Positions 6,273 through 29,490 of a stretch of 64,000 bases of DNA are shown here, piece by piece; positions within the stretch are counted from its first letter, which is position 1; each line of letters opens with the position of its first letter. The translations under genes were made by a program, and so were the position numbers. The DNA is from Bdellovibrio sp. ZAP7 (GTDB lineage Bacteria > Bdellovibrionota > Bdellovibrionia > Bdellovibrionales > Bdellovibrionaceae): positions 3,348,001 to 3,412,000 of the forward strand of contig NZ_CP030082.1 of assembly GCF_006874645.1 (NCBI RefSeq), given 5' to 3'. Below the pieces are notes generated by a model that did no database searches, was not told the origin of the DNA, and saw only the letters and a program-made list of their open reading frames with translations.

Positions 6273-6357
6273 TTCCATATCCTCCATGACATGTGAAACT
6301 GATTGAAGCGGCTCGCTGATTTCATTCTCCTAACCAGAGAGGAAAAAAACATATTCT

Positions 6358-8726: not shown

Positions 8727-8885
8727 AGCGCCTCCAAATAGAGCTCGAAATATTTACATACTAAATCGTAAGAAGAATTGATTCGCTGAACTGTACCTAG
8801 GCTTAGATTTCCAAATTACCTCACGATTGCTTTTTCGAAAATGCACTTCGCATTTATACTAAGAGCACTAGCAAGGATGAAATTC

Positions 8886-9272
8886 ATGACCGTAGCTATC
8901 ACAATCGTTTTTATCGCTATTTGCCTCGTAGAAATCGTTCTTATAATCAAAGAAGTTCACCGAACAACAACGAACACTTTGTCGAAAATTGAATCTCCAG
9001 AGCTCATCAGTGAGACTCAAGTCCTCGCTGAAAAACTGGCAGTTACCACTCAAAAATTGGAAGAGGCGCAAAGAGAAATTCAAGGTATCAATGTGCTTTG
9101 GAATAAAAGTTTACAAGTAGAACAACGCCTACGGGCTGATCTAGAAATTGCAAAAGTGCAGCTGACATATCTGGCTCAAACGCTTTTAAAAGCTAAGTCG
9201 GGTAAAACACAAACAGCTTACTGGACTGAAAATGAAAAAGCATCCCATCTTATCCAAAAGGATTTCATGTAA
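8886..9272 (+). CDS. Small membrane protein with coiled coil, unknown function
   Basis: Start placed at ATG 8886, 8 bases after AAGGA; ATGs at 8841 and 8877 lack a good site. The 128-residue product has one N-terminal membrane helix (about 2-23) and then a long coiled coil (ETQVLAEKLAVTTQKLEEAQ and following). No family is recognised. It faces away from motA across a 159-bp divergent promoter region and ends 5 bp before the stop codon of the 413-residue gene on the other strand. Its position between motAB and the adhesin operon suggests, but does not prove, a role with them. Confidence 0.6.
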   Translation: MTVAITIVFIAICLVEIVLIIKEVHRTTTNTLSKIESPELISETQVLAEKLAVTTQKLEEAQREIQGINVLWNKSLQVEQRLRADLEIAKVQLTYLAQTLLKAKSGKTQTAYWTENEKASHLIQKDFM

Positions 9273-9277
9273 ATCGG

Positions 9278-10519
9278 TCATTTACATTCAATGACTGAAT
9301 ATCCCGCTCCGTCTTTGTTGTTCGCTGCTAACAGATGACGCTGTCCTGGCAATACCACCCACATCTGCTGATGCGCCAAAGAGTTTCTTAAAAATGGATC
9401 CTCAATCTCGTAACTTTGCTTGGTGCCTTCTGCAGTCACGTGTGTTAGGAGAAATCTATCAAAGAAATAGTAGCTTTTATAGCGCTCCGCCACCCAATAA
9501 CCATTTACTTTTTTGGATTCCTCTAACGAATAGTCACCACGAAATGCTAAAGGCTCCGCTGTCATGATGAAGGGAGCATCCGCCCGATTGTTCGCCAAAT
9601 CAGAGAGTTTAAAGAGCTTCCATTGTTCGGTGCGATCCAACCAGCCACTGACTTTAACGCCGAATACGTTTTCTTTGCTTACTACGAAATCAGCAAGACC
9701 GTCTTTTAGTGGAAATAATGGCAAGGGATCTAACTTGAATTTATCGACCGCCACATTATAGAGACTCAGCGTGCCTGACATTCCAGAAGAAAAGCCCATC
9801 AGACCGTCGTCCACGCGTAAGCGTGCATGACGATTTTCGGCGAGTTGATTACACTGCCCCACACCCAAACTGCTATCCGGGTCCACAACCATCAAAGTGT
9901 CAGGAGAACGCCCCACACCTTTGGGAACATAGTCCGACAGACGTCGTAATTCATAAAAACCAATTTGGCCCTTGGAGTTTGCAAAGACCACATTATCGCG
10001 ATTCACTCGGTGAATGCGAACATCCTCTGACCAGTTGCCAGTGCAAAGCCCTAAATTGGATTTTTCCAAAACTTTGTTCTTATTTAAGTTTACGGCAACG
10101 ATTTGTCCCAGATTGCTGCGAATAAAAGCCCAGTCTTTGTTTGTTTCCGCCAACTGAAACTCTTCTGCACCTGAATTCTTTAACAAACTAGCATGACGGG
10201 CATTAAGATCCCAATAAGGCTGTGCATCTTCGGCAAACCCCATTTTTCCAATGAGCCATCCATCTTTATTTTCAGTCAGACCCGCAATCATATACTGACC
10301 CTCTGGAGTGATATACAGATGGGTCAATAAACCCATCTTTTGATCTCCCACCTTGATTGGCCCGGAGTATTTAACCTGGCACTGTAAAGGCACGCCTGCA
10401 CTCTTAGGCAAGTTCTCAAACAAGATTACAAACAGCAGAACCAACGACAAAAATATCGCCGAGAACACCGGAAATTTAATCAACAAAGGAATCTTTTTTA
10501 CTTTATTCATCACAGTCAC
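9278..10519 (-). CDS. Membrane-anchored extracytoplasmic protein, last gene of adhesin operon
   Basis: The 413-residue product has a short basic N-terminus, one membrane helix (about residues 15-34), and a beta-rich region with repeated YITPEGQYMIAGL- and DNVVFANSKGQIGFYEL-like segments that suggest a beta-propeller outside the inner membrane. No family is recognised. The first codon is GTG (10517-10519), overlapping the upstream TGA; ATG 10508-10510 is an equally good start three codons later. The overlap ties it to the VWA gene, and it is the last gene of the operon that begins with the FG-GAP lipoproteins. Confidence 0.65.
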   Translation of the reverse strand: MTVMNKVKKIPLLIKFPVFSAIFLSLVLLFVILFENLPKSAGVPLQCQVKYSGPIKVGDQKMGLLTHLYITPEGQYMIAGLTENKDGWLIGKMGFAEDAQPYWDLNARHASLLKNSGAEEFQLAETNKDWAFIRSNLGQIVAVNLNKNKVLEKSNLGLCTGNWSEDVRIHRVNRDNVVFANSKGQIGFYELRRLSDYVPKGVGRSPDTLMVVDPDSSLGVGQCNQLAENRHARLRVDDGLMGFSSGMSGTLSLYNVAVDKFKLDPLPLFPLKDGLADFVVSKENVFGVKVSGWLDRTEQWKLFKLSDLANNRADAPFIMTAEPLAFRGDYSLEESKKVNGYWVAERYKSYYFFDRFLLTHVTAEGTKQSYEIEDPFLRNSLAHQQMWVVLPGQRHLLAANNKDGAGYSVIECK

Positions 10520-11877
10520 TTCTTAACCTTTGAGCACTGAAGCTTCACAACTTCCTTGTTTGAGCCCATAATGATGTCTTTAAAAATACATTTATCATCG
10601 ACACGAATTTCATAAACACCCTTACCCAGAACCAGCGGGAAATTCGTCACGTGATTTCCCATCATGATGCCCCGGTTACCGAAGACATAGATGCCCTTCA
10701 CCTGAGGATCCTCGACATAAGCGACACCGGCTTCCTCGATGGTATATTCGTATTCCGCATTCGGCACCACGAGGTAGTTATTCACGACTTTTTCATAAAA
10801 AGGATCTCGATAAAATCGGAAGTTCCATTTTCCTGGTGGCAATGACACAACGGTGTCACTATTAAAGCGTTTTACCACCTTACGGTTTTTATTCAGAAGT
10901 TCCACCTTCATCAGGCCGTCAATAAAGTTCGCTTTAAACTTGGCTTCACCCTTCACTTTCAAGGTAACCTTTTTATTTGGCGGGACTATAAATTCCTTAA
11001 AGCGATATTTTGGTTTCAAATTCACGACCGCATAATACCTGCCCGCAGGAACCTGAATCCCATAGGACGCCTGGAAACGACGATAGATTTCATTGGGAGT
11101 TTCAGCACGGAACAACATCACCGTGGCTTGCGGCTCCGGGCTGTCGACAAAAAGATTCTTATTGGGATTCAAGTCTTTATCTAGATCTTCGAACAATTTG
11201 TCCAATTGCTCTTCGTCGTCAGCCTGGTGAAGATCGCCGATACACTTTAGCTTTTGCAAAGTTTCCTGTTGTCCTTGCAGCCCAAATGCCACGACAAAGA
11301 ACTTCAAATCCACATTCTTCTTTTTGAGCTCTTCAGAAAGTTTGCAGGGATCTTTGCCACAGGTTTCCTCCCCATCTGTAAATATCACCACGCGCTTAGG
11401 GCCGTCGTACATTTCCAAATCCTTGTAAGCATCTTTCATAGAATCATAAAGAGGTGTCATGCCCACTGGATCCATAGACTTTACCATTCCTTCGATAAGA
11501 CCTAACTTGGCATTACCAGGTGGAATTGCCAAATAGTTATCCTTACAATCTTTTTTGCGACGTGAGCCAATGACTCGCATGCCACTGGAGGTTTTTTCTG
11601 TCCACTGAGATACTAGGTAGCGGGACAATAGTTTCTTCATCACAAAGATCTTGGTTTTCTTTGCCGTTAGAATTTGGCCCATCGATCCCGAGCTGTCGAT
11701 AATGTATTCCACCAAAGGGGTCGGTACGCCATCCAGCTGGCCCAGATCCGCAGTTCCCTGTTCACTGACGGGAATCTTTGTTGGATCAAAATCAAATTTG
11801 TCCAATTCTTCGGCACCAAATGCCGAAGCTACAGAAAATCCCAATAAAAGAGTCAAGCAAATGGCTTTAATCATCAT
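10516..11877 (-). CDS. Secreted von Willebrand factor A domain protein with intact MIDAS
   Basis: The 453-residue product has a signal peptide (cleavage expected after SAFGA). The VWA domain spans about 55-245 and shows a complete metal-ion-dependent adhesion site: D61-x-S63-x-S65 in DSSGSMG, T141 in GMTPLYDSM and D168 in IFTDGEE. Residues 250-453 are beta-rich, with sequences such as VPAGRYYAVVNL and LPPGKWNFRFYRD, suggesting several small sandwich domains. VWA domains bind protein ligands through the metal; in Myxococcus the VWA adhesin CglB acts in gliding. It overlaps the genes on both sides by 4 bp. Mature protein location (periplasm or surface) is not clear, as there is no lipobox. Confidence 0.85.
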   Translation of the reverse strand: MMIKAICLTLLLGFSVASAFGAEELDKFDFDPTKIPVSEQGTADLGQLDGVPTPLVEYIIDSSGSMGQILTAKKTKIFVMKKLLSRYLVSQWTEKTSSGMRVIGSRRKKDCKDNYLAIPPGNAKLGLIEGMVKSMDPVGMTPLYDSMKDAYKDLEMYDGPKRVVIFTDGEETCGKDPCKLSEELKKKNVDLKFFVVAFGLQGQQETLQKLKCIGDLHQADDEEQLDKLFEDLDKDLNPNKNLFVDSPEPQATVMLFRAETPNEIYRRFQASYGIQVPAGRYYAVVNLKPKYRFKEFIVPPNKKVTLKVKGEAKFKANFIDGLMKVELLNKNRKVVKRFNSDTVVSLPPGKWNFRFYRDPFYEKVVNNYLVVPNAEYEYTIEEAGVAYVEDPQVKGIYVFGNRGIMMGNHVTNFPLVLGKGVYEIRVDDKCIFKDIIMGSNKEVVKLQCSKVKK

Positions 11878-13067
11878 CTCGTCTTCATTAGTTTGCTAAC
11901 AAAATCATCCAAACGGAGACCTAACATCACTTTAAGATACGACTGACTTTCACTGTAGGATTGCCCCACGGGAATGACGTAAGCTCCGTCGGATGCACTC
12001 TTTGTATCACCAGAGAAACTCATTTCTGCCTGGGATAAAGCATAACTCACATCCAGCGAATAACGTTTTAACCACGGAATAAACGGAACATAGAACAAGG
12101 CCGTTGCACCCACTTTAATTTCCATCATAGTGCCCGAGGAGGTGGCGCCGCGACTTACGGAACCATCGGTCACGTTATAACTCGGGAAATAGTTCAAATC
12201 GCAATAGACACGATTGAATTTCCAACCCATCCCTTTTTCCGTCTTATATAAATTGTCCGAGAAGAGATAATGAAAGTTCACTCCCAATCCCAAGCCGGAA
12301 GACTGTGAAGATAAAACATACTCATCTTCGTTCGTCGTAATAAATTTATTCCCGACGGAGATCAGCTTTAAGGTGGGACGTAGCTCTTTCCAAATCGGCA
12401 GCATACGATAGTGCAACGACATGCGCGTTTCTTCTGCCGTCGTGGGACGATCTTCCCGGTAATAAGATTTTACCGGAATTCCAGCACTGGAGGATTGATA
12501 CTCGAACCCGTATCTCCACAGCATGTCGATATACCAAAGAAAATGCATCTCGGTAAATTTGAAGTCATAGACTTTGTATTGGTTCGCCTGATTGGGAGAC
12601 TGACTTTCAAAATGCCCCTGATAAATTCCCATTTCAAAAATCATATACCCTGGCTCATAGGGATCTGCTTGCTCAACGATGGGAATATCTGGTGGCTGAG
12701 GGAAAAGAGGATCATCTGGCGGCGGTTTCAGTTTCGACAAACTGACAACCCAATCGCGAGCTTTAGGAATTTTGGAAATCGAAGGGCCTTCCATCACGAC
12801 CAGAAGCTCATTGTTTTGAACGGTTTCAGCGCCTCCACGGGCTATCACCTCGACGTCATCGCCCTGAACACGCAGGACGACCACCAAATCACCCACGGCC
12901 ACGCGATTGCTGCGAGCCAAAAAGACCACGTCGTCCATCACGCGACGCACGGGAACTGCATTCTTTTTGATGAAGTCGATGTTGATCCAGCTACTGGCCA
13001 AGGCCGGTTCGCTTAGGCAAAAAGACATCCATGTTGCCATCATTAAGATGATAAAAATCCTTTTCAT
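11874..13067 (-). CDS. Probable outer-membrane barrel protein with N-terminal periplasmic domain
   Basis: The 397-residue product has a signal peptide (cleavage near ALASS). A small beta domain follows at about 26-105 (VAVGDLVVVLRVQGDDVEVIARG), reminiscent of FlgT/SH3-like modules, then a Pro/Asp-rich linker (KPPPDDPLFPQPPD). From about 135 onward long amphipathic strands suggest an outer-membrane barrel. ATG follows directly on the TAA of the 2063-residue lipoprotein gene, and the end overlaps the VWA gene by 4 bp. It may be the outer-membrane anchor or exit point for its large neighbours; that is inference. Confidence 0.62.
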   Translation of the reverse strand: MKRIFIILMMATWMSFCLSEPALASSWINIDFIKKNAVPVRRVMDDVVFLARSNRVAVGDLVVVLRVQGDDVEVIARGGAETVQNNELLVVMEGPSISKIPKARDWVVSLSKLKPPPDDPLFPQPPDIPIVEQADPYEPGYMIFEMGIYQGHFESQSPNQANQYKVYDFKFTEMHFLWYIDMLWRYGFEYQSSSAGIPVKSYYREDRPTTAEETRMSLHYRMLPIWKELRPTLKLISVGNKFITTNEDEYVLSSQSSGLGLGVNFHYLFSDNLYKTEKGMGWKFNRVYCDLNYFPSYNVTDGSVSRGATSSGTMMEIKVGATALFYVPFIPWLKRYSLDVSYALSQAEMSFSGDTKSASDGAYVIPVGQSYSESQSYLKVMLGLRLDDFVSKLMKTR

Positions 13068-16000
13068 TTATTTTGCTCTGAAAACCTTTCCTTTGCTTCG
13101 GCTGATCAATAAGATCTGCCCTGAATCGTAACTCGCAATACTTGAGATCGGCGCCTGTGCGGCACTGACGTAAACGTGATTGTCGTTAAGATCAATTGTG
13201 AAAACTTGGTTGGCGCCTTCCATCGTTCCGATCAACAGACGATCTGCCGCCCTTAAAACCAAACGTCGACCGGCACCAGGGACGTCAAATGCCGAAGCAT
13301 TCAACTCGTTTACCCCGATATACTGCATACTACCCGTCGTAGGTGTTGAAGAACTGCCATCAGGGAATGTTACGACTCCGCCTGTACCACTTAACAGTGC
13401 ATAGACGCGGTTGGTGATGGAATCATACACCACATCTGTCGGCTTACAGTCTTCATGCCCTACCACGCCATCAAATACAGGCAACGTTGCGACCAATGAA
13501 GGAGTTCCTCCACTGCGGGCTGCCGTCACACTGAAGACATAAATTTTGTGAGCAATAGACGGACTCGTCTGTTGGGTGGTCACATACAGGCGATCAATGG
13601 CCCGATTCAACGTCATACCTGTGATCTTTGAAGTTCCAAAACTGTACACCGTCTTAGGATTGTCTGGCGTCAAATAATCGTAATACAAAACATTCTGCGA
13701 ATCGGAGGCATAGAAAGTATATGCCGAGTCCATCGAAGCCGTGATACGCGAATCTGAATAATAAGGACTTGTATAAAGCTGAGTGGGACAGTCACCGGAA
13801 CATTTGTTGCTACCGCTCAGTGTGAGTGCGGTTAGATCTCCATTCAGGATATGCAAAGCTTCGGTCGTCAACCCAAAAGGCCCACCGCGTGCTACCTGCG
13901 ATGTCATCAACATATCATAACCCGTCCCAACAGGGTTGATCGCCACGCGACGAGTGGAAGCACCTGTCAACCATGGCAATGACTCCGTAAAGTTCCATGG
14001 GGGGATCGTCACGGTACCATTTGGTTTAGCGACCACTCCATTCACACTCAACAAATCCCACAGAAAGTGCCTTGTAAAAGAACCCGATAGATAACTTCCG
14101 TAAATGATCAAATGATCCTGATAGCTCGTACCTTGTGAGATGCCATAAGGGATTTCACCACTCCACGTGACATTCAAAGGGGTCGTGGCTGGCAAACTCT
14201 CTGCTCGAGCTGCCGTTAAATCAAAAATCGATTCCCCCAGCAGATAAGTATTTTTAACTTTCACACTCCATGTGCGTGAAACGGTATAGTTACCATCTGT
14301 CACGTCCACTCGAACGGAGAATTCTCCTGCAGTTTTAGGTCCACTGCCGTCCACGTCAACTGAACCGTCCGTATCCAGTGGTTTGAAAATGTACGAAGGC
14401 CCTTCGTCGTATTTCAGTACATCATTCACATACCAACGATAGAACAAAGAATCATTGGTATTAGGATCCGTCGCATTCACCAAGAAGTTCAATGAAGCTT
14501 TTTCGGAAATCAAAACTGAATCTGAGGATGGAATGACAGAATTAATAACTGGCGGCTCCTCAAGAGGAGAGATCGCACTTTGAACCTTCAAATAAAAGTG
14601 CGCGGCATCCGTTTCCCCCGTAACAGAGTCACGAACCTGAACACGGACCAGGCTGCCCGCGCCGTTAGTCGACGTCAAATCTGTCGTATAGTTTGGAACC
14701 CAAGAAATAACTCCCGTTGTTGGATCAATACACATGCCATTTATTTCGCCACAGGCGCGAGGAGAATTTAAAAGTGAATACTCCAGTGGATTTTTCTGCG
14801 AGTTGTTCACCAGTACTTCATATCTAAATGGATATGACCCCATACTTGCTGCAGTCTGGGGCATGAAATGAACTGGAATATTGCTGACATCGACACGAGG
14901 ACTGATCAAGAATACCGGCGCAACAACTGTGATTTGCAATGGGGCCGAACTGATCGCCCGACTCAAAATAGTTCCGTCACGATCTACATCCCCGTTGTCA
15001 CTCACATTCAGCTCGGCAGAATAAATACCTATGTGACCACGTTGCGGACACCATTCCATTTGATATTTCTGACGAAGGACACCCGATACCAGCTCCGGTG
15101 CACCCACGGGACTGAATTTAGGAACCGCAAGATCGGTATTCAGAACACTACTGCTGTAACATGGACTCACTGTGCGATTTTTATCGTAGGAGCTATCAAA
15201 TGCTACTAATTCAGAAGCAAATGTTGTCGTCGTAGCATGACAGATATAAGGATCAGAAGAACCCGAATCCAAAACTGCATTTTGCAATGGATTGCCATTA
15301 CTATCACGGCAAATGGATAGCAACGTCGAGAATGTCCCTCCCTGAGGAATATAGGCGTCATTATCGTAAAGATAGAATTCCTTTTTCACATAAGTATCGG
15401 CAAAAACTCGAACCTGGTTGTCCGTCGCCATTTGGCCGATGGAAGGAATCTGATTTTTATTGATCACACGAATTTTGTAATAGCCATAAATCGTTTGCGT
15501 CAAATCGGGTGAGGACTTGGCGTCATAGATCTTCATCTTGACGACAAATCCCGCCGAACCAGAAAACTTTTTAGATTCCTGATCCGTAGGCGTCCAAGAA
15601 ATTCTCGCCGTCGTCTTGCTGCCTGCCGTTGCTGTCAGGTCTACGACCTTATCCACGCTCACACTCAGCCCCGGAGGTCGCGTCACCCAGGTATTGGTTT
15701 TCAAATCATAAACCTGAGGATCCAATTCAAAATTGGTCGTCTTAAGTTCAATCCCTTTATTGGTATCTTTCGTATAAAGATTGTAGTAGCCCGCAACGCC
15801 TTCTTCGTAATCTCCCAGATAGACTGGATTCGAAGTGGATGCCCCCAAGCCGGCACTCAAGGTCGTAAAAGAGCTGTCTGTCAAAATAGACGGATGATTA
15901 ATCTCATTTACCACAAGAGTAATATTAGTCGTCCACGAGGTGGCCGACGTCCACGTATCAGGGTTTCCTTTATTCATGATTTCATTGACTGTCAGTTTGA

Positions 16001-19000
16001 ATGAAAATGTGCCTGACAAATCGGCCGTTACCGGGTGATAGCGCAAATAACATTTATTGGTGTTAAAATACTTACGCCCCGAAGATGGATGTGTCGATAG
16101 CAGATTCGAAGCGGAAGTCGGCACACACTTATTAGCGCAAGTGGTTCCCGCATTTCCCGCATCACGGCAAAGATCCCAAGTCCCCGTCGGTGCCGCTCCC
16201 GAGGCGGTGATGCTATAGGAATAAGTGTCGCGGCGATCATAGGGATACCAATAGTTGGTAATTCCATAAAGTGGACTCGGAACCTCAGAATAGTTATCTG
16301 AAACCTCGATTGCTCCGTTGGTCAACTCGACACCCTCGTAGGCTTGTATGACTGGATCAGTGATCAATTTAGACGGCACATTCAAATGAGTGTAGTTATA
16401 GGTCATGGTCCTATAGGCAGGATAACCAATATTATTGGTTCGACGAACCCAAACCCCCGTAACGGATGCGGTACCGGCATTCATAGTCACCACACTCATT
16501 GTCTCGTATAGGGTGCGATTGGCCGTCATGATTTTCGTGCCCACCGGTAAAGTAAAGGAGGTCGTTGTACTGGTGCGGGTAAAATTCACCAAGCCCTCCA
16601 TATCAAAGGACGTAGGATTCGTAACTTTCAAGGTCGCGGCGGCGGCGGGCAAAGTGTCATAGAAGACATTGATCGTATTTGCTGCTGGCTTTTCACCATC
16701 CAATGCACGCACTGTAAACTTACGCGCCGTTGGCGTCACAAAATTCGGTTCAACAAATATGGATGTCAGATCATAGTTTGTAAGCTTGGAAACCGATTTT
16801 GCCGTGAAAGAAAATCCTGCCGGTTCACTGGGAGCCGGAGACACATAAGAAATGGCTAAAGCCGTGCCCGCTGGGAGCTCCGTATAAATTCGCCAAACTG
16901 GGACCGTCACAGACAGAGTTCCAATAGGCATCACAACGGCAGCGGGCACTTCAAACTTAACACTGTTCACAAATGTCGATCCCGAAGACTCCGCGGTCTT
17001 CACGATCGTACCGGCCGGGATGGTTAATGCCACCGTCGCCGTTGCGCGAGAGAATGTCACTGTCCCTTTCAGGTCTATGGCGGCGGAATTCGTAACGCTC
17101 AGGCCGGCAATAGGACTTTCGAATACCGTAATTTTCCCAGCAGGAACATCTGTGGTATCGGGCACGACCGGAACATAAAGCAACCAATCTTGGGGTTGCA
17201 CAACAACGTCGTAATATGTTTTGAATTTCTGAATATATCCTGCGGTCGTCGAGGTTAGGACAGTTCCTTTTTTTATTGTCGTTGCAGCCGTCGGTCTGCC
17301 CGTCAATGCGCTGGAACGTTCGAATGTAACATAGCCAGCCCCTCCCCACCATTCGGTATCCCAACGACCACGAACACACAAAGTTCCTGAATTTTTACGA
17401 TAGGTGGGCTCTGTCTGAGTGACATTTTGCTTTAACAACAGAGGCTGTGATGTTCCGCAATCGGCAAGAAGCTTTAAAAAGTCATAACTGGAGTTTGCGG
17501 CAAAACCAAAAGCTTCGACCCACAAAGATCCACCATCTTTGTCTGAACTTGTGAAATTTGTATTCGATCCTGCGGATACATAAGTCAAAGCAGCAGAGAC
17601 GTCAGAGCCACCCAAACAAGGCTTGGTATTACGATCTTGAGATGTAAAATTCAAAGTGATCGCTGAAGCCACTCCCCCATGATTGTCTTTTGCGACAATG
17701 ATGAAAGTGCCAGTTTTCACGGAGTGGGTTGGCTTCCAATCATAGATATAACGAAGACCGCCAGCAATGGGTGTCTCGGAAACCTTAGTCATATAGGACG
17801 CCAAAGTCCCCGAGGTCGCAATGGAGACAACATCTTCAGGGTTGGGCGTCGGTGTCACCAAATTATCTGGATCGACGATATCAAAATAGAAACGATACGG
17901 AGGCACACCGTCTGGAACTTCAAGAGCACAATAGTCGTACTCGTAGGGATCATTATAAACGACTTTTGCACCAGCCGTACCATCCACCAAATAGGGAGCT
18001 CGATTACTATCACCCACATTGAGGTTCAAAGTTGCAATTGTAATTCCTGAAGACTCATCCGTAAATGCCAAGGCCACCGTTGCTGATTTTTTTAAAGCAT
18101 CTCTGTTTGTCGGCGTCCAACGCAACTCAATTTCATTAGCACCATCGATCTGGGCGGGGGCCGCAACTCCGTTAATAGTAATGGTGCTTGAATCAACTAT
18201 GGGTTCTAAAGAGACTGAGACTTTCTCTTTATCTGGGTCCTGGTATCCTATTTTACAAACCCATTCCTTATTCTCGGCGGCATCTAAGGAGCAGGTATGG
18301 GAATACTCAGGACGACGATTCACATTAGTTACGAAAACATTCCAATTGATGCGTGTGACTTTACCACCGTCGGAAAAAATCACCGACATTTGATAGGGAT
18401 CCACTCGCCCCTGCTCAAAATCAGGGATCCATTTTACGACACCGTCTTCACTGGCAACCGGTTTATTTTCAAAAGTCCAGGCATAGAATACTTCATCACC
18501 ATCGGGATCGCGAGCGGCCGCTCTCATGAGCAACGTCGCCATTTCATTCACGCTTTGATCAACCAGTTTAGTCGTGGCCTTGTCGTCGACAAGAGGAGGA
18601 CGATTGTCGATATTGAACGGAAACGGTTCGAAGGCAATATCACCATTGCTGTCAAAGTCGAACTTGATATTAAAATTTTTTAGAAATGTTAAGAACTGGG
18701 GATCACTCGACAAACCATTGCGCACAAAACGATATAAAAGGTCAGGACTAAAATCTGCGGCAATGCCGAACAAAGCCATGCGCTCTTTACGAAAGGCAAT
18801 GACAGCATCAGTAATTTGCTTCACTTCTTCGTATCTATAGGAACTCAACGCGCGATCTGGATACGAGGACAAAAGTGAAAACACCAATGTCGAATCCATA
18901 TCCACTTTATTTACCACATCTGGGAAAACAATCGCGTACCAAGGTGTGGAACGATACTCCATGACCACTTTAGCCACGGCGGATGACGTTAGGGTCAGAT

Positions 19001-19259: not shown

Positions 19260-19282
19260 AAGACCCTTCCCCTTAAAAACTT

Positions 19283-22200
19283 TTAGAACAATAAGAAATA
19301 CGTTCCGATGCGAACCCCCTGAACACTGCCCGCACCATTATAAAACTCTGTCGGCACCATCAAATCCATTGTGCCATCCCCGTTCACATCCCCTGTGGAC
19401 GTATTAGAATAGAAATAACGTGGAGCTTGCGTGCTTGTATCTGCACGTTGAACGATATAAGGCTTCAAGTGCCCCGAGCTGTCGGCTACAACTGATGTAT
19501 CCGGATAGTCCATCGTATGCAGACCTGTGGCTGATCCAAAGAACACTACACCGCGACCGAAGTTCGAGATTGAATTGACTTGATCGTCCCAGAAAGGAGC
19601 ACCCAATACGACATCGTCGTAGCCGTCACCATTGAAGTCGCCTTTCTTTTTTCTGCCTGACATAATTTCATAGCCACTGAGATCACCCGAATTGGAGTCC
19701 CAGATATAGAAAGGCATGGGAGCTGGTTTCATATTCCCGGATGCTTGCGCACACTCTGCCATCGGCACGACACCACTAGCAACGATCACGTTGTCCGAAA
19801 ATTTATATTGGGTGTTTAAATTTGAACCTAATGTTGTCCACATATCCGTTGCATTGTCGTTACCGCAAAGGGGACCATAAAAAATATAGCCCATGCCAGC
19901 AGAATCCAACCCACTCTTAGGAGATTCCGCCGAAGAAACGATCAGATCTTCATAACCATCATTGTTGACATCACCAGCGGAAGCCACCATCCATCCGAAT
20001 TTGCGGTTCGTGCGATTGGATCCCAAATCGCCATTAATAATGGGCGGCATCAGTGAACGCACTTTACCAGCTCCATTTAAATTCAGACTGGTCACATTCA
20101 AACTTTGGAACAGATCATCACTTTGGCAAGCCCCACTCGTTGCCGTGCTGTTGTAATAAGATCTTTGATCTGCTGCCAGGATACCGCTCGCACTGCCCCG
20201 GAATAAGAAAATGCGACCAAATGTATTGCGCGGATCGGAGTCATAATAACAAGAAGCCTCTTCCCAATCTGGAGCCGACACCACAAGGTCGTCTATACCG
20301 TCATGGTCAAAGTCCATCACCGCAACACTTTTACCAAAGTGATGTAACAATCGGTCATATCCATGCGGCACGTTATCAATGAATGGATCATACAAAAACT
20401 GCATTTTACAGTTTTTCGTGGTCGTACCCGTGCAGGCTTTATTAGTGCCGGACTCCGAACCATAAGCATCCACCATGTAAGAGGTATTTGCCGACGCAAG
20501 ATTATTGCCGACAGCAGGCTCCAGATCAGAAGCAGAATAGCCCTTCACTTTTGGGGTTTGCACACCGTTCGTCGATCCATAATAGATCCACATGCGACCA
20601 CTTTCATAGGTCGGAGTACCACCCGTACATCCCGAGTCTGTCGCATCTGAACATTGCCAACCAGTTCCTGAAGTCCATCCCCCACTGGCATTACCGTCTG
20701 GAGGTTGAACACCAATATTATATCCGCCAGATTTATTCTGAATAAAGAAACCGTTCGCGTAAGGACTGCTGATCACCAAATCCGACAATCCGTCTCCGTT
20801 GAAATCACCGTGATAGATTAACTCACGACGGCTGACAGCCCCGTTCGTACCGCTCGCTGTGTTGGTTGGACTTTCTTGGAAAGCCCAGCGCTTCGTTACA
20901 ATCTGAGGATCGCCGTACGCAGGCACCCACTGAGGATTGTTAACCGCTTGCAAGCCTGAACGCGAGCCATAATATACAACAACCTGACCGCCGCTTTGGA
21001 TGGTTGCATCCACGAAAACAACGTCCGCGAATCCGTCACCATTTACATCGCCCGCATCAAAGGCACGATGAGCCCAAGTACTGCTCAAATTCGTAGGCTG
21101 AGAAATCAGCTGTGGCAAGGCGATATCGTCCATGGTGATCCCTTGTGCCGGCGTCGTCGCTGGATAACAAGAATCATCGTTCGTGCTGGAGTCTTTAAAA
21201 ATCTTCGTCTTATTTGCCAAGCAATAGTCAGTTGTAACCAAACCAATCTTTGAGCCAAAGAAAATCACCGCTTCTGTCGTATAAGCCGTCGTATTTTTCG
21301 ATGGACGAGTGATCTTGGCAACCGCATCGGCATAACCATCACGATTAATGTCGCCAACGATACGAATACTGTCATACCCAAATAGCTGCGGACTCCCCAA
21401 AGTATCGTAAATCGCAAATGAGGGTACGGAGTTTACTGATGGCAATGCTTGGCCACTACTGTTGAAGCCGTAAATACCTCCACCACCATTTTTGGATGTT
21501 TTGTCTAAGTAAGTTCCAGCCGCGACGTCATTCAACGGACGAACGCCGGTGAAATCGCCATCAAAGTTCCCCACAGCAACTGAGCGGCCCATATAATCAA
21601 AAGCCTGCGCTCCGGAATTATAGAATTTCAAAAAGTTCGTCGTAAGACCTGCTCCCGCCAAACTTGTAAAAGCGTATACCGCACCAGAGTTCGCACCTTT
21701 GGTATTATCGCCGACGGCACCCACGATAATGTCCTTCAGACCGTCACCCGTCACATCGCCGACGGCAATACCCTCTGGATGCATTCCCAGATTATAGTAG
21801 GCTCCAATTGAATTACTGCGAATCAACGTCGGTGCACACTGCTCACGAACCACAGCATTGTCCGTTGTGAACGCCGCACACTGAGCAAGTCCATCATTCC
21901 AATCCAAATCTTTATTGGTAGGAGACACCGGATCGATTTGATAGAAGTCATTGTATTCATAGCGTCTGTAGGGATTTCCGTAGTACACCCACAAAGCGCC
22001 CGTGTTTGTATTGGCGTAATTCGAGAAATAACCTGTTCCTACGACAGCTTCAGCATACCCGTCCCCATTTGTATCGGAAGGACTGGTGATCACTGCATTA
22101 TTGCTATCATAGTGTGATGGATCTCCGACCAACGCAACGGAAGTACCGAAGCCCAAGTTCTTCAATTTATTCCCACCACTTGTTTTATATCCACTGCGCG

Positions 22201-24514
22201 GAAATAAAATTCTGACACTGGCTGAATTCACCAGGCAAGAATAGTGTTCGCCAGGGTTACTCATCTTTCGGCCACTGCAGCCCCAGAAAGCATTGCGCGA
22301 TGGGCTTTCCTGAACGCCGGGCGCCGGTGGTGTATCTGCCCCACGACCGAAATACAAGAAAGCGGCCCCAACTCCATCACCCACATTGGCCGTGGTAGCT
22401 GCATTTGTTGGTAAGCCATAATAATGGGCTGATCCATCCGCGTTGCTCGTAAATCCTCCCCAACCACCGTTGGTGAAACCAAAAGAAGCACATTCGCCAC
22501 TACCGGGATTGCAGGCCCCAATAAGTTTTAGTTTTGATAAACTGGTAATTTGCGGATAACGATCGCCAGGAGCTCCGACAATCATGTCAGAGCCACCCAC
22601 CAATTTATCCAAGGTATTGCGAATGCGGTACTTACCGTCGACATCAGCACCACCCGCAACAGAGTATCCGAACAACTGACCTTCATGCGGAGTTGGCGAG
22701 AAAATCTTTAAGAAACGGAATTTTACGGATGAATCTGAGGTTGGAGTCTCGTATCCCAAGCCACTCTTAGATCCAAAGAACATAGCAACGTAACCCGTTT
22801 TTATAACCATCTTTGCTGTACCGGATGCATTCGAATCAGCAACACCATCCCAAGGCGCCGTTGGTGCCCCCACCGCAATGTCATCGTATCCGTCAGCATT
22901 AAAGTCTCCGACAAAAGAAACTGAAAAACCAAACTGTGGATCATCGGCATTCATCATAGAACTTGGATTTATGTAGGCACTTGGCAAGATTGCCATGTTC
23001 GGCCATAGCATCACTGCGGAGCACGTCGCATTTTCGACCAAGCCATTACAAGTTTCGACGTTTTGCTGCATATCTTTGATACGTGAAGGAGCCGTCAAAC
23101 CTTTGGAGCTTCCGAAAAAGACAAAAGCAGCCCCGTCGTAAGTTTTATCCCCTGATGATGTTTTCGGAGTATTATAACCAGGGGCACCCACCAACAAATC
23201 TTGGCAGGCATTCCCAAGCAATGTATCACCATTTAAATTTCCGCTGCCGGAAAGGGACTTACCAAAGCGCGAATAATCGGTCAGATCTTCGAAGGTCAAT
23301 AGTTGTGGATCAGAACCTGGATTCGCCGGATTGCGACTTGGAGCACCCGTGGTATTCAATTTGTAAACACCCGTCGCAGGGTTTCTTACAGAATAATAAA
23401 TATAAACTGCGCCCGCTTTTGGCGTTGTCACACCAGCAGAAGTCACCGACACACTTGGCAATCCGATCGCCAGATCAGGATAACCATCGCAGTTGAAATC
23501 GCCTGTCGTCATGGCTTCACCCATAAAGGCCACACCCGAATCCACTGCTTTGATAGGAGGGATCGCATTCAATCCCAAAATGCCTTTAATATATGTACTG
23601 AGCTTATCGAAAATCAGAGTTTCAGTTTTGCCAGCGGCAGTATAGCTGACTTGCAAAGAGAGGTTTTCAACTTTGCCATTCGTCACACCTGAACCCGGAG
23701 AAAAGACAATCGTCCCAACGCCCGTTAAGGGATCTGAAATCGGTAATGAACCCAAATACATACGGGACACATAGTTTTCATTTTTATAAGTCGAGTTAAC
23801 CACCGGTGACACTTTGACGAAGGGAAGTGAACCGATAGAAATCGGACTGAGTTCATACGTGGGCGTCGGGAATGAGGAATTTGTGCTGATATTTACGGAT
23901 TTGGTTGGACGCTCGTATGTTTCATCCAAGTACTTCACCTGTACGACAAAGTGATAGCGCGTGGAACCTTCCATACCCCGGAATGTGTATTTAGTATCGT
24001 AAGCCGTGTAATCGACCGCAGTCCAATTGCTCGTATTGCTCGCCGTTGGATCTTCATATTTTTTCAGATAGATCTGATAAGATGCAACCTTGGGAGCATA
24101 AGTCCAAGACAAAACCAAATTCCCGTCAGAGTCTTTGATGACTTTATCAACGCCACCGAATGGTTTGAGCGTGGTCACCGCAATTTCTTTATTTCCACCA
24201 ATACTCAAAGTCCCATCGGTTGCAACGACTTTGAAAGTGTAAGCTGTATTAGGGTTCAAATTGCGAATGATCGCCTCGGACCGAGGAGTTTCCGCAACGG
24301 CGGTACTGGAGGTGTTATTATAAACTTGATAATTTTTATAACGATCGTGCAAATTCCAATAGACACGCACAGCTGTCGGAGACAACGGTTCAACGCCTGC
24401 GATACCGGAGAAGTCTTTTAAAACACTGCCCGTTTCAACTTTTTCTGTGCAGGACAGTGTCGTGAATAAAACAGATCCCAACAGGGCCCATTTGATCAAC
24501 TTAGTAAAGGACAT
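19283..24514 (-). CDS. Giant Fn3 and FG-GAP repeat lipoprotein (integrin-alpha-like), copy 2
   Basis: Start placed at ATG 24514 because GGGAG lies 8 bases upstream; the codon six residues earlier lacks a site. The 1743-residue product has lipobox TTLSC (Cys22), two N-terminal fibronectin type III domains (about 30-210), then about 13 FG-GAP repeats with calcium-binding loops such as GDFNCDGYPD, GDFNADGYDD, GDVNGDGFAD, GDVNNDGYED and GDFNGDGYDD, each followed by a short hydrophobic IAVGAP-like strand. FG-GAP repeats form beta-propellers like integrin alpha heads, so about two propellers are expected. Its start lies 14 bp inside the end of the 1567-residue paralogue, which has the same layout, so the pair arose by duplication. 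Confidence 0.87.
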   Translation of the reverse strand: MSFTKLIKWALLGSVLFTTLSCTEKVETGSVLKDFSGIAGVEPLSPTAVRVYWNLHDRYKNYQVYNNTSSTAVAETPRSEAIIRNLNPNTAYTFKVVATDGTLSIGGNKEIAVTTLKPFGGVDKVIKDSDGNLVLSWTYAPKVASYQIYLKKYEDPTASNTSNWTAVDYTAYDTKYTFRGMEGSTRYHFVVQVKYLDETYERPTKSVNISTNSSFPTPTYELSPISIGSLPFVKVSPVVNSTYKNENYVSRMYLGSLPISDPLTGVGTIVFSPGSGVTNGKVENLSLQVSYTAAGKTETLIFDKLSTYIKGILGLNAIPPIKAVDSGVAFMGEAMTTGDFNCDGYPDLAIGLPSVSVTSAGVTTPKAGAVYIYYSVRNPATGVYKLNTTGAPSRNPANPGSDPQLLTFEDLTDYSRFGKSLSGSGNLNGDTLLGNACQDLLVGAPGYNTPKTSSGDKTYDGAAFVFFGSSKGLTAPSRIKDMQQNVETCNGLVENATCSAVMLWPNMAILPSAYINPSSMMNADDPQFGFSVSFVGDFNADGYDDIAVGAPTAPWDGVADSNASGTAKMVIKTGYVAMFFGSKSGLGYETPTSDSSVKFRFLKIFSPTPHEGQLFGYSVAGGADVDGKYRIRNTLDKLVGGSDMIVGAPGDRYPQITSLSKLKLIGACNPGSGECASFGFTNGGWGGFTSNADGSAHYYGLPTNAATTANVGDGVGAAFLYFGRGADTPPAPGVQESPSRNAFWGCSGRKMSNPGEHYSCLVNSASVRILFPRSGYKTSGGNKLKNLGFGTSVALVGDPSHYDSNNAVITSPSDTNGDGYAEAVVGTGYFSNYANTNTGALWVYYGNPYRRYEYNDFYQIDPVSPTNKDLDWNDGLAQCAAFTTDNAVVREQCAPTLIRSNSIGAYYNLGMHPEGIAVGDVTGDGLKDIIVGAVGDNTKGANSGAVYAFTSLAGAGLTTNFLKFYNSGAQAFDYMGRSVAVGNFDGDFTGVRPLNDVAAGTYLDKTSKNGGGGIYGFNSSGQALPSVNSVPSFAIYDTLGSPQLFGYDSIRIVGDINRDGYADAVAKITRPSKNTTAYTTEAVIFFGSKIGLVTTDYCLANKTKIFKDSSTNDDSCYPATTPAQGITMDDIALPQLISQPTNLSSTWAHRAFDAGDVNGDGFADVVFVDATIQSGGQVVVYYGSRSGLQAVNNPQWVPAYGDPQIVTKRWAFQESPTNTASGTNGAVSRRELIYHGDFNGDGLSDLVISSPYANGFFIQNKSGGYNIGVQPPDGNASGGWTSGTGWQCSDATDSGCTGGTPTYESGRMWIYYGSTNGVQTPKVKGYSASDLEPAVGNNLASANTSYMVDAYGSESGTNKACTGTTTKNCKMQFLYDPFIDNVPHGYDRLLHHFGKSVAVMDFDHDGIDDLVVSAPDWEEASCYYDSDPRNTFGRIFLFRGSASGILAADQRSYYNSTATSGACQSDDLFQSLNVTSLNLNGAGKVRSLMPPIINGDLGSNRTNRKFGWMVASAGDVNNDGYEDLIVSSAESPKSGLDSAGMGYIFYGPLCGNDNATDMWTTLGSNLNTQYKFSDNVIVASGVVPMAECAQASGNMKPAPMPFYIWDSNSGDLSGYEIMSGRKKKGDFNGDGYDDVVLGAPFWDDQVNSISNFGRGVVFFGSATGLHTMDYPDTSVVADSSGHLKPYIVQRADTSTQAPRYFYSNTSTGDVNGDGTMDLMVPTEFYNGAGSVQGVRIGTYFLLF

Positions 24515-27500
24515 ACACGACTCCCGTTGCAAATGCTTTTCCAGAGGGATGACTGCGGCCCGGAGCCCCTAACAAAACATCAGGAATTCCATCACCGTTG
24601 ATATCACCTGCCGGTGAACTCGAAATATATGTAAACTCAGAGGCCTCACGATTTGGCAGATACAAAAGCGTCGGCTCGCAGACTGGTGTCGTTCCACCGT
24701 AACAACGAGGTGTTGTCGTCGGAGCTGAATCAATTTTCAGACCATATTCGCCGCCATAGAAAACAACGAAAGCTCCCGTGTTCGCTAAGACAGTATCCAG
24801 ATCATAGTTTCGGCCCGGAACATTGACGATGATGTCAGCATAACCGTCGGCATTGATATCGCCGACGGCCGCAATCCCCGCCCCAAAATGATCTGTTGTA
24901 GAACCTTGGAATAATGTCGGAGAAGAACGTTGTGGTTTTAGATCCATATTTCCGACATTCACAGTGTTGATCGGCAAAGCACCCGTGCCGAAATAAGTTG
25001 TCGAGTTGATATCCGTCGCACCCTTGAAGGCCATGACCGTACCTACCGCACCACCAAAGAAAGTGTAAACTGTTGCATTCACCGAGGCCGTCGGAGTGCG
25101 AGGTGCCGAGACAACCAGATCGCTCACGCCATCTTTATTAATGTCACCCGGAGCGATCACACTGTAACCAAAGCCTTCACCGGTTGTAGAACCTTGAAGT
25201 TTTTGAACAGGAGTATAAGCCAATCCTCGGTTTGTGCCTTTGTACAAGTACGCGCGGCCCGTATAGGTCGAATACCCCGGATCGCCGACCACAAGCTCGT
25301 CATAAATTTCTCCAGACTGCGTTTCCAAAGATTTGATGGCGGCCGTGCTCCAACCAAAGCGAACCCCACCCACACCTTCGTTCGATAACAACATCTGAAC
25401 TTTACAAACAGCGGGGACCGTTACGGTGCATGGATTTTCAATCACGATGTCTGCCGCATTGCCGTTGGAATCGCTTAACAGAGTTTTACCATTCGTACGA
25501 TTTGTTTGCGGACCATCTTTTGAGCCATAAAAAACAAAGACACGACCGTAGTTCGCAGTCGTATAGAGCAATGAACCCACACGAACATCCGTCGATGGAA
25601 GATCTGCAGAGTCAGTGGCTACCGTAAAATCACCATAACCGTCGCCATTAAAGTCACCATATGTCACCGCCCGATTTCTAGGATTGAAATCAGAGAATCC
25701 CAATTCACTAGGCACAATATTAGCCGCGGTACGTTTCGTCCCCCCCGAATAGTGAAAATAGACAGCACTGGAATCCGCCAGGGCAAAGCTCATTGGATTC
25801 TGTCCTACAGGGGAAACTGAAGGCGTCGAGCTTGCAACCAAACCACTCGATGAACCATAGTAAATGTATGAAGATCTGTTACCGATCACCATCAAGTCAT
25901 CGTAGCCATCACCATTCACACTGCCTATACGATAGAACTCCCCACCCAAGCCTGAATCTAAATCCACAACTAATTTCAACGGGGCCAAATCCGTCGCCGG
26001 ATTTCTCGACGGCTCAGGGGTTAGAACCAATCCCGCGGCGCTGCCGTAATAAATCACAACTTCAACCGTATTGCCGACAGAGATTTGGGTAACGACATCC
26101 TGATATCCATCACCATTAAAGTCCCCAGCCACCTTCGCACGCTCATAGTGATAGTTTAGCTCTTTACTGAAGTTCACATTGATCGTTTGATCAGCCTTCG
26201 TCACAGAAGATGCGAAGTTACCGGTGGAATTAAAAATAAATGCGCCGCCATTATAATAGACGGGCGAAGACATAAATGGAGCGCCCACGATTAAATCACC
26301 TGAGCCATCACCATTAAAATCAGCTCCGGCAGCCCCACCCAAACCGAAGTTTGAGTTTGCGGTGAGGTCCCGCGGATAAATAACAGAGGCACCAAATGGA
26401 TTCACGCCACCGCTGTACCAAGTACAGTTGGTCGAACAAACCGTGTTGTCATTATCTGACAAGCGAGGTGTATCTATACGGGTAGTGCCTTCATAACCCA
26501 GAGTGGAAACATCCGGCTTATATAAATATATTACACCACTGCCAGCGATTGTTGAACTGCCCGTCGAAGCTGTCGTGGAACGATATGGAGCTGAAATCGC
26601 TAGCGATGGCATCGCGCGTGAAATGGTCTCGATATCGGCAACAGTCCCCATCGAATAGCCGAATTGAACATAGGACTCAGGAGGATTCGTATGCAACACC
26701 TGATTTTCACAATGCTTCAAAGCTCCCGTGGTTACATTCGTATTGCGGGAATCGCAAGCCACACGATTGATAGCAGTAATACTTTGTTGAGGATCCAAAA
26801 TCCCCACGATGCCGCCCGTAGCATAGTCATTCGATCGCGGTGTCACGTAGTATCCGAACACCACCCCGGCATTGGTCATGCCGCTTACGGTGGAGGTAGG
26901 AGCGCCGACAAAGACAGCCCCATTTAAATTCGGAACATTGTTGGTCGCACCAATAATGTTAGTCAGAGGATAACCATTCTGATTCGGAACACCGAGAATG
27001 CTGGAACCATAGCCTTGCACAGTGATATAGTTAGCTTCTGAATTTGCACTCAGATCTGGATAAGATTCCTGACACGTCCATGACAAGATCTTTTGTAGAT
27101 CCGCAGCGCCACTCGCAATCGTAGGCATCACACCTTTACAAGCAAGGATCGATCCTCGCCCGGAAGAACGACCTGGTACACCGATCACCAAGTCATCACA
27201 CTTGGTGAAGTCATAGCCTTTATTTTTAGGAGCTGGAGACGTTTCTCCCGCATAATTCGTTTGTCTGAATTTATAGGTAGCATTGTTTTCACAGACACGG
27301 GAATTATAAGCCGTCCCCAAAGCTTTGGCGAAGTCTTCGGTGAAACTTTTCCCGGCGAAGGTTCCATCCGCTGCGATCAAAGAAGTTAGACCAATACTTT
27401 CCGCATCAATGACGGGGAAGGACTTTGTCGATGTAACCGGAAAAAGTCCCATGCGATCGCCACGGAGAACCGTTACCTGGCGTTTATAATTTGGAGTAAC

Positions 27501-29204
27501 GTAAGTCGTCACGCCAATCGCCAAATCATCAAAGCCATCATTATTAAAATCACCGAATGAAATAGACGTAGTCGCAACTGTCGTGTCGTCATAGATTTTT
27601 ACTGGACGGCATTTAAATGAGGTCGGATCACAAGTCGTTTCATTCACTCCGTACGAAATACCACCCGAACCCGTCACCAAACCTCGAGTCGGATCACCGA
27701 AGGCGACAAATACTTGACCCTGGCTGGTCATCATTGCCAAGTCATCACAGCGATAGATCTTTTTAACCTTAGAAATATCTGAAACACCCGAGGCCGGAGT
27801 AAATAAATTGTCACAAAGGCCCACCTTGTTTGCCTTCGAGTCACTTAAATCGGTGTAGCGACTGAAACAGTCACCATTGATATTTCCAACTGCAAGGGCC
27901 TGCCCCAAGCGTGTTCCAGTTGGCAATCCCGGATAATAAACAAGTTGCGGATCAGGATAAGCGGCATCTGCACTTGGCGCTGGTGTTGTCTTGAGTGTCG
28001 GGCCAGGATCGATCAGATTTCCCTGAGCATCATAGTACGGGGGAGCATCGTATCCATAATATATGACAACGGCACCGGTGGAGTCCTCGTGCTTGTCCCC
28101 GACGTATGCCGTTGCCCGGGGTGCACTTACGGCGACATCCATCAAGCCGTCACAGTTAAAATCGCCAACAGCCACTTGAGATCCCAGCTCCTGCATGCCA
28201 AGACCACCATTCACCAGGCGTGGATACAGCGGAACAGGTGCCGACACTCCCTCAAGTGAGCGAATCAAAGGCTTTTTAATTTTTCCAGCACCTTCAATTA
28301 AAACGCTGACAATCGTACTAGCTCCAGTGGTGGAAGTTACTTTCGCATACATGTCTTTTTGCCCGGGAGAGATCGGCACGATCGAACGAAAATAGTCATT
28401 TCCGTTAACGATCGCCCAGCGAATATCTGTCGCCCGTTCAAAAATTTCTGTTGTATAAGTCGAATCACCACCCTCGGTCCAAAACCAAGGAAAATTTCCA
28501 ACGACTGCCATTTGCATTTTAACTGTTGGTAGATTTGCTAATTGAGATTGCACCAAAACACAGGGGGCTTTCGAATTGATATAGGTCTCTGACATATTGG
28601 CAGGCTCGAAAGTGCCGTCTTGATAGTAAGCCATCACCCAAAAACAATACTTGGTTCCGCTTGGCAAATTAGTCACGGATCCCACACTTTTATTGATGAT
28701 CGTTGCTGCTGGATTTGTTAAATCCCAGACTTCGCTCTCTTTTTTGGTATATATTTTATAGGTGACTCCTTCGCCATTTTTGACCCAGCTGACCTCCACC
28801 GACCCATTGGTTTGTGCCGTCAAACCTGAAGCTGGAACGCCACCGAAAGAGCTCATTGTTTTCACTGAAAGGGACTTATCGTACCCAATTTCAGTTCCAT
28901 CCGTAGCACTCACTCCGGTAACGGAGAAATCATAGAACGTATCCATAGCCAAAGGAGAAATTGTCGTCGTCGCAAATGTTTCAACTTTATCCGGGGCATT
29001 AAATCCTTTGCGATAGACACGATATTCCCTGAAACGTGCTTGGAGAGACCATGACAGCTTCACGGACGTTGGCGAGATCGCGACAGCTTCCTGCACACCT
29101 TCAAACTTTGAAGGAATGGATGTCCCCTGTAATCCAGCGTTGTTGCAAGAAGACAAGATGAAGCCAAATATGATTAGCGACGAACAAGAAAGGAGGTGTC
29201 TCAT
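24501..29204 (-). CDS. Giant Fn3 and FG-GAP repeat lipoprotein (integrin-alpha-like), copy 1
   Basis: The 1567-residue product has lipobox LSSC (Cys20) and two N-terminal Fn3 domains with SPTSVKLSWSLQARFREYRVY, closely matching the second copy. About ten FG-GAP repeats follow (GDFNCDGLMD, GDFNNDGFDD, GADFNGDGSGD, GDFNGDGYQD, GDINKDGVSD, GDINADGYAD, GDINGDGIPD). Many paired Cys residues lie in loops, which fits an exported, disulfide-bonded protein. It is the first gene of the adhesin operon. The divergent region 29205-29490 separates it from the FecR/Fn3-like gene. The ribosome site before ATG is weak. Confidence 0.87.
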   Translation of the reverse strand: MRHLLSCSSLIIFGFILSSCNNAGLQGTSIPSKFEGVQEAVAISPTSVKLSWSLQARFREYRVYRKGFNAPDKVETFATTTISPLAMDTFYDFSVTGVSATDGTEIGYDKSLSVKTMSSFGGVPASGLTAQTNGSVEVSWVKNGEGVTYKIYTKKESEVWDLTNPAATIINKSVGSVTNLPSGTKYCFWVMAYYQDGTFEPANMSETYINSKAPCVLVQSQLANLPTVKMQMAVVGNFPWFWTEGGDSTYTTEIFERATDIRWAIVNGNDYFRSIVPISPGQKDMYAKVTSTTGASTIVSVLIEGAGKIKKPLIRSLEGVSAPVPLYPRLVNGGLGMQELGSQVAVGDFNCDGLMDVAVSAPRATAYVGDKHEDSTGAVVIYYGYDAPPYYDAQGNLIDPGPTLKTTPAPSADAAYPDPQLVYYPGLPTGTRLGQALAVGNINGDCFSRYTDLSDSKANKVGLCDNLFTPASGVSDISKVKKIYRCDDLAMMTSQGQVFVAFGDPTRGLVTGSGGISYGVNETTCDPTSFKCRPVKIYDDTTVATTSISFGDFNNDGFDDLAIGVTTYVTPNYKRQVTVLRGDRMGLFPVTSTKSFPVIDAESIGLTSLIAADGTFAGKSFTEDFAKALGTAYNSRVCENNATYKFRQTNYAGETSPAPKNKGYDFTKCDDLVIGVPGRSSGRGSILACKGVMPTIASGAADLQKILSWTCQESYPDLSANSEANYITVQGYGSSILGVPNQNGYPLTNIIGATNNVPNLNGAVFVGAPTSTVSGMTNAGVVFGYYVTPRSNDYATGGIVGILDPQQSITAINRVACDSRNTNVTTGALKHCENQVLHTNPPESYVQFGYSMGTVADIETISRAMPSLAISAPYRSTTASTGSSTIAGSGVIYLYKPDVSTLGYEGTTRIDTPRLSDNDNTVCSTNCTWYSGGVNPFGASVIYPRDLTANSNFGLGGAAGADFNGDGSGDLIVGAPFMSSPVYYNGGAFIFNSTGNFASSVTKADQTINVNFSKELNYHYERAKVAGDFNGDGYQDVVTQISVGNTVEVVIYYGSAAGLVLTPEPSRNPATDLAPLKLVVDLDSGLGGEFYRIGSVNGDGYDDLMVIGNRSSYIYYGSSSGLVASSTPSVSPVGQNPMSFALADSSAVYFHYSGGTKRTAANIVPSELGFSDFNPRNRAVTYGDFNGDGYGDFTVATDSADLPSTDVRVGSLLYTTANYGRVFVFYGSKDGPQTNRTNGKTLLSDSNGNAADIVIENPCTVTVPAVCKVQMLLSNEGVGGVRFGWSTAAIKSLETQSGEIYDELVVGDPGYSTYTGRAYLYKGTNRGLAYTPVQKLQGSTTGEGFGYSVIAPGDINKDGVSDLVVSAPRTPTASVNATVYTFFGGAVGTVMAFKGATDINSTTYFGTGALPINTVNVGNMDLKPQRSSPTLFQGSTTDHFGAGIAAVGDINADGYADIIVNVPGRNYDLDTVLANTGAFVVFYGGEYGLKIDSAPTTTPRCYGGTTPVCEPTLLYLPNREASEFTYISSSPAGDINGDGIPDVLLGAPGRSHPSGKAFATGVVYVLY

Positions 29205-29490
29205 GACATTCAGTTTATAATTGCGAGAAAATTATTGGAAATCTTGAGACTTGAGAGCCCTCTATTGGTACAGGTGGCTTGATTCGAACATAAATTCGGC
29301 CGAAAACAGCGCGAGCTTGATTGTATTGAATATCAGCCGCGATTTTGCACGTTGCACGTGCAAAAAATAATGCATTCGCCAAACTCCACCGAACAATACC
29401 GAACACTTTCAAATGTCGCCGTACCTCGATGGGGTCGTAACGTGATCGCAATGAAGTGAAATCACCGCCACAAAATGAAATTATATGTGC

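Follow-up and report, generated by a model that had tools for sequence, protein, structure and literature searches.

An operon of six closely packed genes occupies the minus strand of a 64,000-nucleotide stretch (hereafter the window) of the Bdellovibrio sp. ZAP7 genome, a single contig of 4.12 Mb (NZ_CP030082.1, positions 3,348,001 to 3,412,000). In 5' to 3' order its genes encode an FG-GAP protein of 1567 aa, a second FG-GAP protein of 1743 aa, a giant lipoprotein of 2063 aa, a barrel-like protein of 397 aa, a VWA protein of 453 aa and a membrane-anchored protein of 413 aa. The open reading frames (ORFs) at 10516-29204 are present as described in an earlier interpretation made without database searches (the sequence-only reading), and Pfam matches bear out its account of two FG-GAP lipoproteins and one VWA protein in one operon. 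Its description of this interval as an overlapping operon holds for three junctions (14, 4 and 4 nt), but the successive junctions are a 14 nt overlap, a 23 nt gap, a junction of 0 nt and two 4 nt overlaps, and the unit reaches well beyond the interval, to about 272-32487, as a module of ~32 kb. The giant lipoprotein and the barrel-like gene sit between the VWA and FG-GAP genes, which are thus not neighbours. For the ORF at 19283-24514 the ATG start is taken, the mechanical ORF beginning at TTG 24532. The main feature of the locus escaped that interpretation: MotA, MotB and a FliF-FliG fusion are encoded by the same conserved module. Its features, in window coordinates, are as follows.

272..2083, plus strand: HAMP-SpoIIE phosphatase, probable regulator (Pfam SpoIIE E=2e-34)
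2058..3812, minus strand: FliF-FliG natural fusion P0008, 584 aa, proposed rotor subunit (FliG sequence match, model, co-inheritance)
3809..4801, minus strand: 330 aa protein with N-terminal membrane helix, mostly periplasmic (sequence; diverged relatives in modules)
4798..5385, minus strand: small outer-membrane-barrel-like protein, 195 aa (signal peptide, beta-rich; in nearly all complete modules)
5382..6287, minus strand: PEGA/TPR lipoprotein with VSAC lipobox (Pfam TPR_2 6e-8, PEGA 0.0096; in nearly all complete modules)
6358..6972, plus strand: small outer-membrane-barrel-like protein, 204 aa (in nearly all complete modules)
6966..7919, minus strand: MotB-type stator subunit with SYAD channel aspartate and OmpA domain (Pfam MotB_plug 2.4e-16, OmpA 3.8e-18; alignment)
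7920..8726, minus strand: MotA-type stator subunit (Pfam MotA_ExbB 4.5e-23; NCBIfam flagellar PomA)
8841..9272, plus strand: 143 aa membrane-anchored coiled-coil-like protein (syntenic in Bdellovibrio modules)
9278..10519, minus strand: 413 aa protein, encoded last in the operon, with a membrane helix at the N-terminus and a large domain in the periplasm (syntenic in Bdellovibrio modules)
10516..11877, minus strand: VWA protein, 453 aa, with complete MIDAS (metal-ion-dependent adhesion site), Sec signal, beta-sandwich C-terminal part and conserved cysteines (Pfam VWA, MIDAS alignment, model)
11874..13067, minus strand: outer-membrane-barrel-like protein, 397 aa (adjoins VWA in relatives with intact flanks, except G024)
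13068..19259, minus strand: Ig/cadherin-like lipoprotein, 2063 aa, LGGC lipobox (conserved in modules)
19283..24514, minus strand: FG-GAP propeller lipoprotein with two fn3 domains, 1743 aa (PF01839; fn3 2.1e-8)
24501..29204, minus strand: FG-GAP propeller lipoprotein with two fn3 domains, 1567 aa, first gene of the operon (PF01839; in 12 of 66 family genomes)
29485..32487, plus strand: FecR-type protein, 1000 aa, probable periplasmic scaffold, divergent from the operon (FecR E=0.033)

The simplest reading of P0008 is that of a natural FliF-FliG fusion forming a self-contained rotor subunit. A profile of 12 orthologues matched the solved FliG structure 1lkv in a PDB profile search (E=9.4e-30, residues 345-554). 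The predicted layout comprises a signal or N-terminal helix, an RBM3-like periplasmic domain (14-146), a membrane helix called from sequence (163-190) and FliG N, M and C domains (271-566). In the structural model (mean pLDDT 73), residues 271-566 compare with FliG at Z 13.6 (C-domain rmsd 2.7), and residues 14-146 with FliF RBM3 at Z 11-12.5 (rmsd 2.3-2.6, about 100 residues). For the latter region, unrelated OsmC/Ohr chains score Z 8-9, below the FliF match. A sequence-only hhalign comparison of the fusion with the genome's own FliF covered 29 residues at a non-significant E of 0.025, and the FliF identity therefore rests on the model, while the FliG part is indicated by sequence and model alike. 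The genome's own flagellar FliF lies about 300 kb from the module, and Pfam and NCBIfam scans recognised no export-apparatus genes in the module. In the open-access literature we found no published non-flagellar FliG/FliF fusion and no such module. In three genomes (G315, G305 and G319; L203+L204, L205+L206, L207+L208) the fusion gene is preceded by a gene for an extra protein that has a membrane helix and an RBM-like domain but hardly any FliG or none; it may be a second ring subunit.

The MotAB pair of the module displays the features of flagellar-type stators, with MotA fold, MotB plug, channel aspartate and OmpA domain, and MotA matches flagellar PomA far better than TolQ (2.3e-44 versus 1.5e-5, NCBIfam). 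The aligned MotAB rows of the cluster all retain the channel aspartate of MotB (SYAD) and the FPPAFG motif of MotA. Torque residues were compared against two true flagellar FliG rows, at positions given in E. coli numbering (FliG R281, D288 and D289; MotA E98). Lysine K524 of the fusion is invariant at the R281 position, and the D289 position is usually acidic. Judged from these residues, a MotA-FliG torque contact is plausible but diverged.

The surface part of the module is dominated by three giant proteins, all with lipobox cysteines (LGGC, TLSC, LSSC). FG-GAP repeats (PF01839) are found in ten stretches of the 1743 aa protein (E=1.8e-57) and eight of the 1567 aa protein (E=9.7e-49); both contain fn3 domains, and calcium-type DxNxDGxxD motifs occur in nine and eight copies, respectively. 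A plain Pfam scan gave no match for proteins P0002, P0003 and P0006. The VWA domain (Pfam PF00092, E=3.3e-7; mean pLDDT of the protein model 84) has the complete MIDAS exactly where the sequence-only reading had placed it, and its residues D61, S63, S65, T141 and D168 are invariant in 12 of 12 orthologues. The protein has a cleavable-type signal, lacks a lipobox cysteine and lacks a membrane helix. In all outlying modules read the VWA gene adjoins a barrel-like gene, except in G024, whose module has the two on opposite sides. In G315, G305 and several of L116-L123 the VWA-barrel pair and the FG-GAP genes point in divergent directions, and elsewhere in Bdellovibrionota the pair is sometimes separated from these genes. 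VWA and barrel thus look like one sub-module, and FG-GAP proteins and giant lipoprotein like another.

The gene set is not a chance assembly, because it is co-inherited and its conservation extends to identities of about 40%. Close relatives of the VWA protein, the barrel, FG-GAP protein P0005 and the fusion were found in 12 of 66 family genomes, and these 12 are identical for all four. In a phylum-wide set of 369 genomes, 26 have the full-length fusion and 26 the VWA protein, with both in 25 (hypergeometric 1.6e-36, a statistic that ignores shared ancestry); VWA matches that are weaker and shorter were seen in another three. Such weaker relatives (E about 1e-45, covering the half of the protein with the VWA domain) are seen in G290, G291 and G292, where no full-length fusion was detected. 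Outside the main Bdellovibrio branch the gene order is rearranged and the set kept (G024, G061, G058, G062, L124, L125, G315, G305, G238, G239). Complete modules keep MotA, MotB, fusion, TPR protein, both small barrels, P0002, VWA and FG-GAP proteins, and motor genes accompany surface genes in every complete module read.

The ZAP7 genome contains a second module (L201, G000:C1:2728000-2747000, genes within C1:2728000-2745400). Its motor genes encode a 616 aa fusion-type protein, a 201 aa protein, MotA and MotB, which are the second MotAB of the genome, and the 616 aa protein matches the profile of the first fusion at 99.1% over 545 columns. Its surface and regulatory genes encode large Ig/fn3 lipoproteins, a 361 aa protein, a MIDAS VWA protein, SpoIIE, FecR and TPR proteins, and a barrel is among the proteins of the module. 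This locus has the same plan with different surface proteins, which argues that motor and surface proteins belong together. The number of MotB genes in 24 genomes of the genus follows the number of modules, each of which adds one: two in genomes without either module type (one in two fragmented metagenome-assembled genomes, MAGs), three with one type, and four with both (three in a fragmented MAG). The exception is G007 with five MotB genes, three of which were read and all lie in modules of the same plan (L233, L234, L235). Each has its MotB beside a TPR gene, a fusion-family protein of ~580 aa (profile match 94-96%) and a 200 aa protein; a different giant surface-type protein is present at each, and SpoIIE at two of the three. 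Up to three modules are found per genome, with different surface proteins. In G003 the three MotB genes lie at 0.13, 2.92 and 3.17 Mb, which agrees with the locus numbers of two of the pairs in Bdellovibrio bacteriovorus HD100, Bd3020 for MotB2 and Bd3253 for MotB3 (PMC11323537). If G003 is HD100, gene position suggests that the MotAB of the module corresponds to MotA2/MotB2 (Bd3021/Bd3020).

SpoIIE relatives are present at the paralogous module L201 and at L238, where one adjoins the FliF-FliG gene of G003. A STAS-like protein, called by eye, is encoded between the first FG-GAP gene and the FecR gene in two genomes (G003:C1:2940904-2941380; G009:C1:3129220-3129699), and its combination with SpoIIE suggests partner-switching control. 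The FecR-type gene occurs in most, but not all, Bdellovibrio modules, and a FecR gene is likewise present in the paralogous module. Directly past the FecR-type gene of the window, at 32509-32895, lies a gene for a HEPN-domain protein (E=2.5e-6), syntenic in G017 and G022. A promoter and terminator scan gave a signal no better than chance.

With moderate confidence, we interpret the FG-GAP/VWA operon as probably the outer part of a rotary machine that derives from the flagellar motor, lacks a flagellum and energises adhesin-like surface proteins. MotA and MotB would form a proton-driven stator, anchored to peptidoglycan via the OmpA domain of MotB. The fusion would assemble into an inner-membrane ring, with the RBM3 ring in the periplasm and the FliG torque ring in the cytoplasm, and would be turned by MotA. 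Motion or tension may then be relayed by the TPR lipoprotein, the FecR-type and membrane-anchored proteins and the VWA protein on its barrel. The force would finally reach the three giant outer-membrane lipoproteins (two FG-GAP/fn3, one Ig-like), which, if exposed at the surface, could serve as adhesin-like contact parts for substrate or prey. SpoIIE probably regulates the machine, whose role may be dynamic adhesion, surface movement or gliding, or prey contact.

Several observations weigh against this interpretation. The equivalents of FliG D288 and MotA E98 are not kept or vary, and none of the module's proteins was recognised as a candidate for FliM/FliN or the rod. The three MotAB pairs of HD100 are all reported to contribute to flagellar motility (Morehouse 2011). 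The module is present in nine of 24 Bdellovibrio species searched and absent from most, and its role is therefore accessory. HD100 has four gliding clusters of the Agl/Glt type (PMC12546842), and a transposon hit in aglS alters attachment (PMC6561027), so that gliding does not require the module and a role in gliding is uncertain; a 2026 review still calls the gliding engine unidentified (PMC13104615).

The sequence-only reading had proposed an integrin-like adhesion complex. A static bacterial analogue of integrins, in which the VWA-MIDAS and FG-GAP proteins are in direct contact and MotAB and the fusion are unrelated neighbours, is in our view unlikely. It draws on the fold content, the shared operon and the invariant MIDAS, and on the precedent of the MIDAS protein Bd0875, a proven invasion adhesin in Bdellovibrio (PMC11003981). 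Yet MotAB, the fusion, the TPR protein and the small barrels travel with the operon across several families even though the genomes are rearranged, a pattern that chance proximity does not account for; the partner of the VWA protein is the barrel and not the propellers, and the VWA protein lacks a lipobox. The likeness to integrins is one of folds, namely a propeller of FG-GAP repeats with DxNxDGxxD motifs and a VWA/I domain with a MIDAS, but the module proteins are separate and lack an alpha/beta pair, membrane-spanning stalks and an inserted I domain. We reject integrin membership on this architecture, because the VWA domain belongs to a separate protein instead of interrupting a propeller, lacks its own membrane anchor and has a barrel as its constant neighbour. 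The VWA model also resembles integrin I domains (Z about 19) no more closely than it does other VWA proteins such as the type V pilus tip Mfa5 (Z 21.4) and a TFIIH subunit (Z 20.9). An adhesion complex that includes the FG-GAP and MIDAS-VWA proteins, whose genes are strictly co-inherited, is plausible, but it would not be an integrin.

About equally unlikely is a TonB/Tol-like system for uptake or envelope maintenance, in which the FG-GAP lipoproteins would bind polymers and the motor would pull an outer-membrane transporter. The TPR lipoprotein, the OmpA-type MotB and the outer-membrane barrels are consistent with it, and vWA proteins have been proposed as force transducers beside TolQR-like motors (PMC12204202). 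A FliG torque ring, however, has no role in Ton/Tol systems, and the best MotA matches are flagellar, with TolQ far behind. Similarly unlikely is an auxiliary flagellar system, in which MotAB and the FliG variant modify flagellar rotation and the giant lipoproteins are separate or part of the flagellar sheath: the FliG part is homologous, HD100 MotAB2 has so far been treated as a flagellar stator and fliL mutants show altered motA2/motB2 expression (PMC11323537), but this FliG copy, with a FliF-like ring domain of its own attached, would be a competitor of the flagellar MS ring, only two MotB genes are present in most genus members that lack the module, FliL and MotB2 gave a negative two-hybrid result (PMC11323537), and one genome can hold up to three modules with different surface proteins.

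Returning to the flagellum-less rotary machine, the module in itself links a motor and surface proteins in one list of genes that can be tested. If the interpretation is correct, flagellar rotor and stator have been reused without a flagellum, which bears on the construction and evolution of flagellar motors, and a stator pair of the model predator HD100 studied as flagellar would be reassigned. The arguments are evenly balanced for a wider class of such machines in Bdellovibrionota, with a constant motor module (MotAB, fusion ring, TPR protein, small barrels, SpoIIE), swappable giant surface proteins and up to three copies per genome, to which HD100 MotAB2 would belong rather than to the flagellum. 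The module belongs among proton-driven envelope motors and has an even chance of being a new class of these.

With the flagellar motor the module shares MotA, MotB with plug and OmpA domain, and in the fusion the FliF RBM3 fold and FliG N, M and C domains. In contrast to the flagellar motor, however, FliF and FliG are one protein, RBM3 stands alone with a short insert replacing the collar, nothing in the module was recognised as export apparatus, rod, hook, filament, FliM or FliN, and the motor is linked to giant lipoproteins, VWA protein and barrels. In the Myxococcus Agl-Glt machine the VWA adhesin is CglB, a VWA-domain outer-membrane lipoprotein. This machine likewise combines a proton-driven inner-membrane motor with outer-membrane barrels, lipoproteins and a VWA surface protein, but the stator of the module is of the flagellar MotAB type with a FliG-type partner, and its VWA protein has no lipobox cysteine at the signal peptide. 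No gliding-named NCBIfam model matched the module proteins, in a library whose coverage of all Agl/Glt models was unchecked. The Bd0875 adhesin of B. bacteriovorus is also a MIDAS VWA protein of a predatory Bdellovibrio, but it has a lipobox and was described alone, whereas the VWA protein here is secreted and encoded within a motor module. Judging by locus number, the latter is not among the HD100 MIDAS proteins tested so far (Bd0875, Bd0767, Bd1483 and Bd3132; PMC11003981). The vWA force transducers of TolQR-like systems (PMC12204202) are similarly VWA proteins genetically linked to a 5:2 motor, but they are membrane-tethered and no FliG-type rotor has been described for them, while the VWA protein of the module has a cleavable-type signal.

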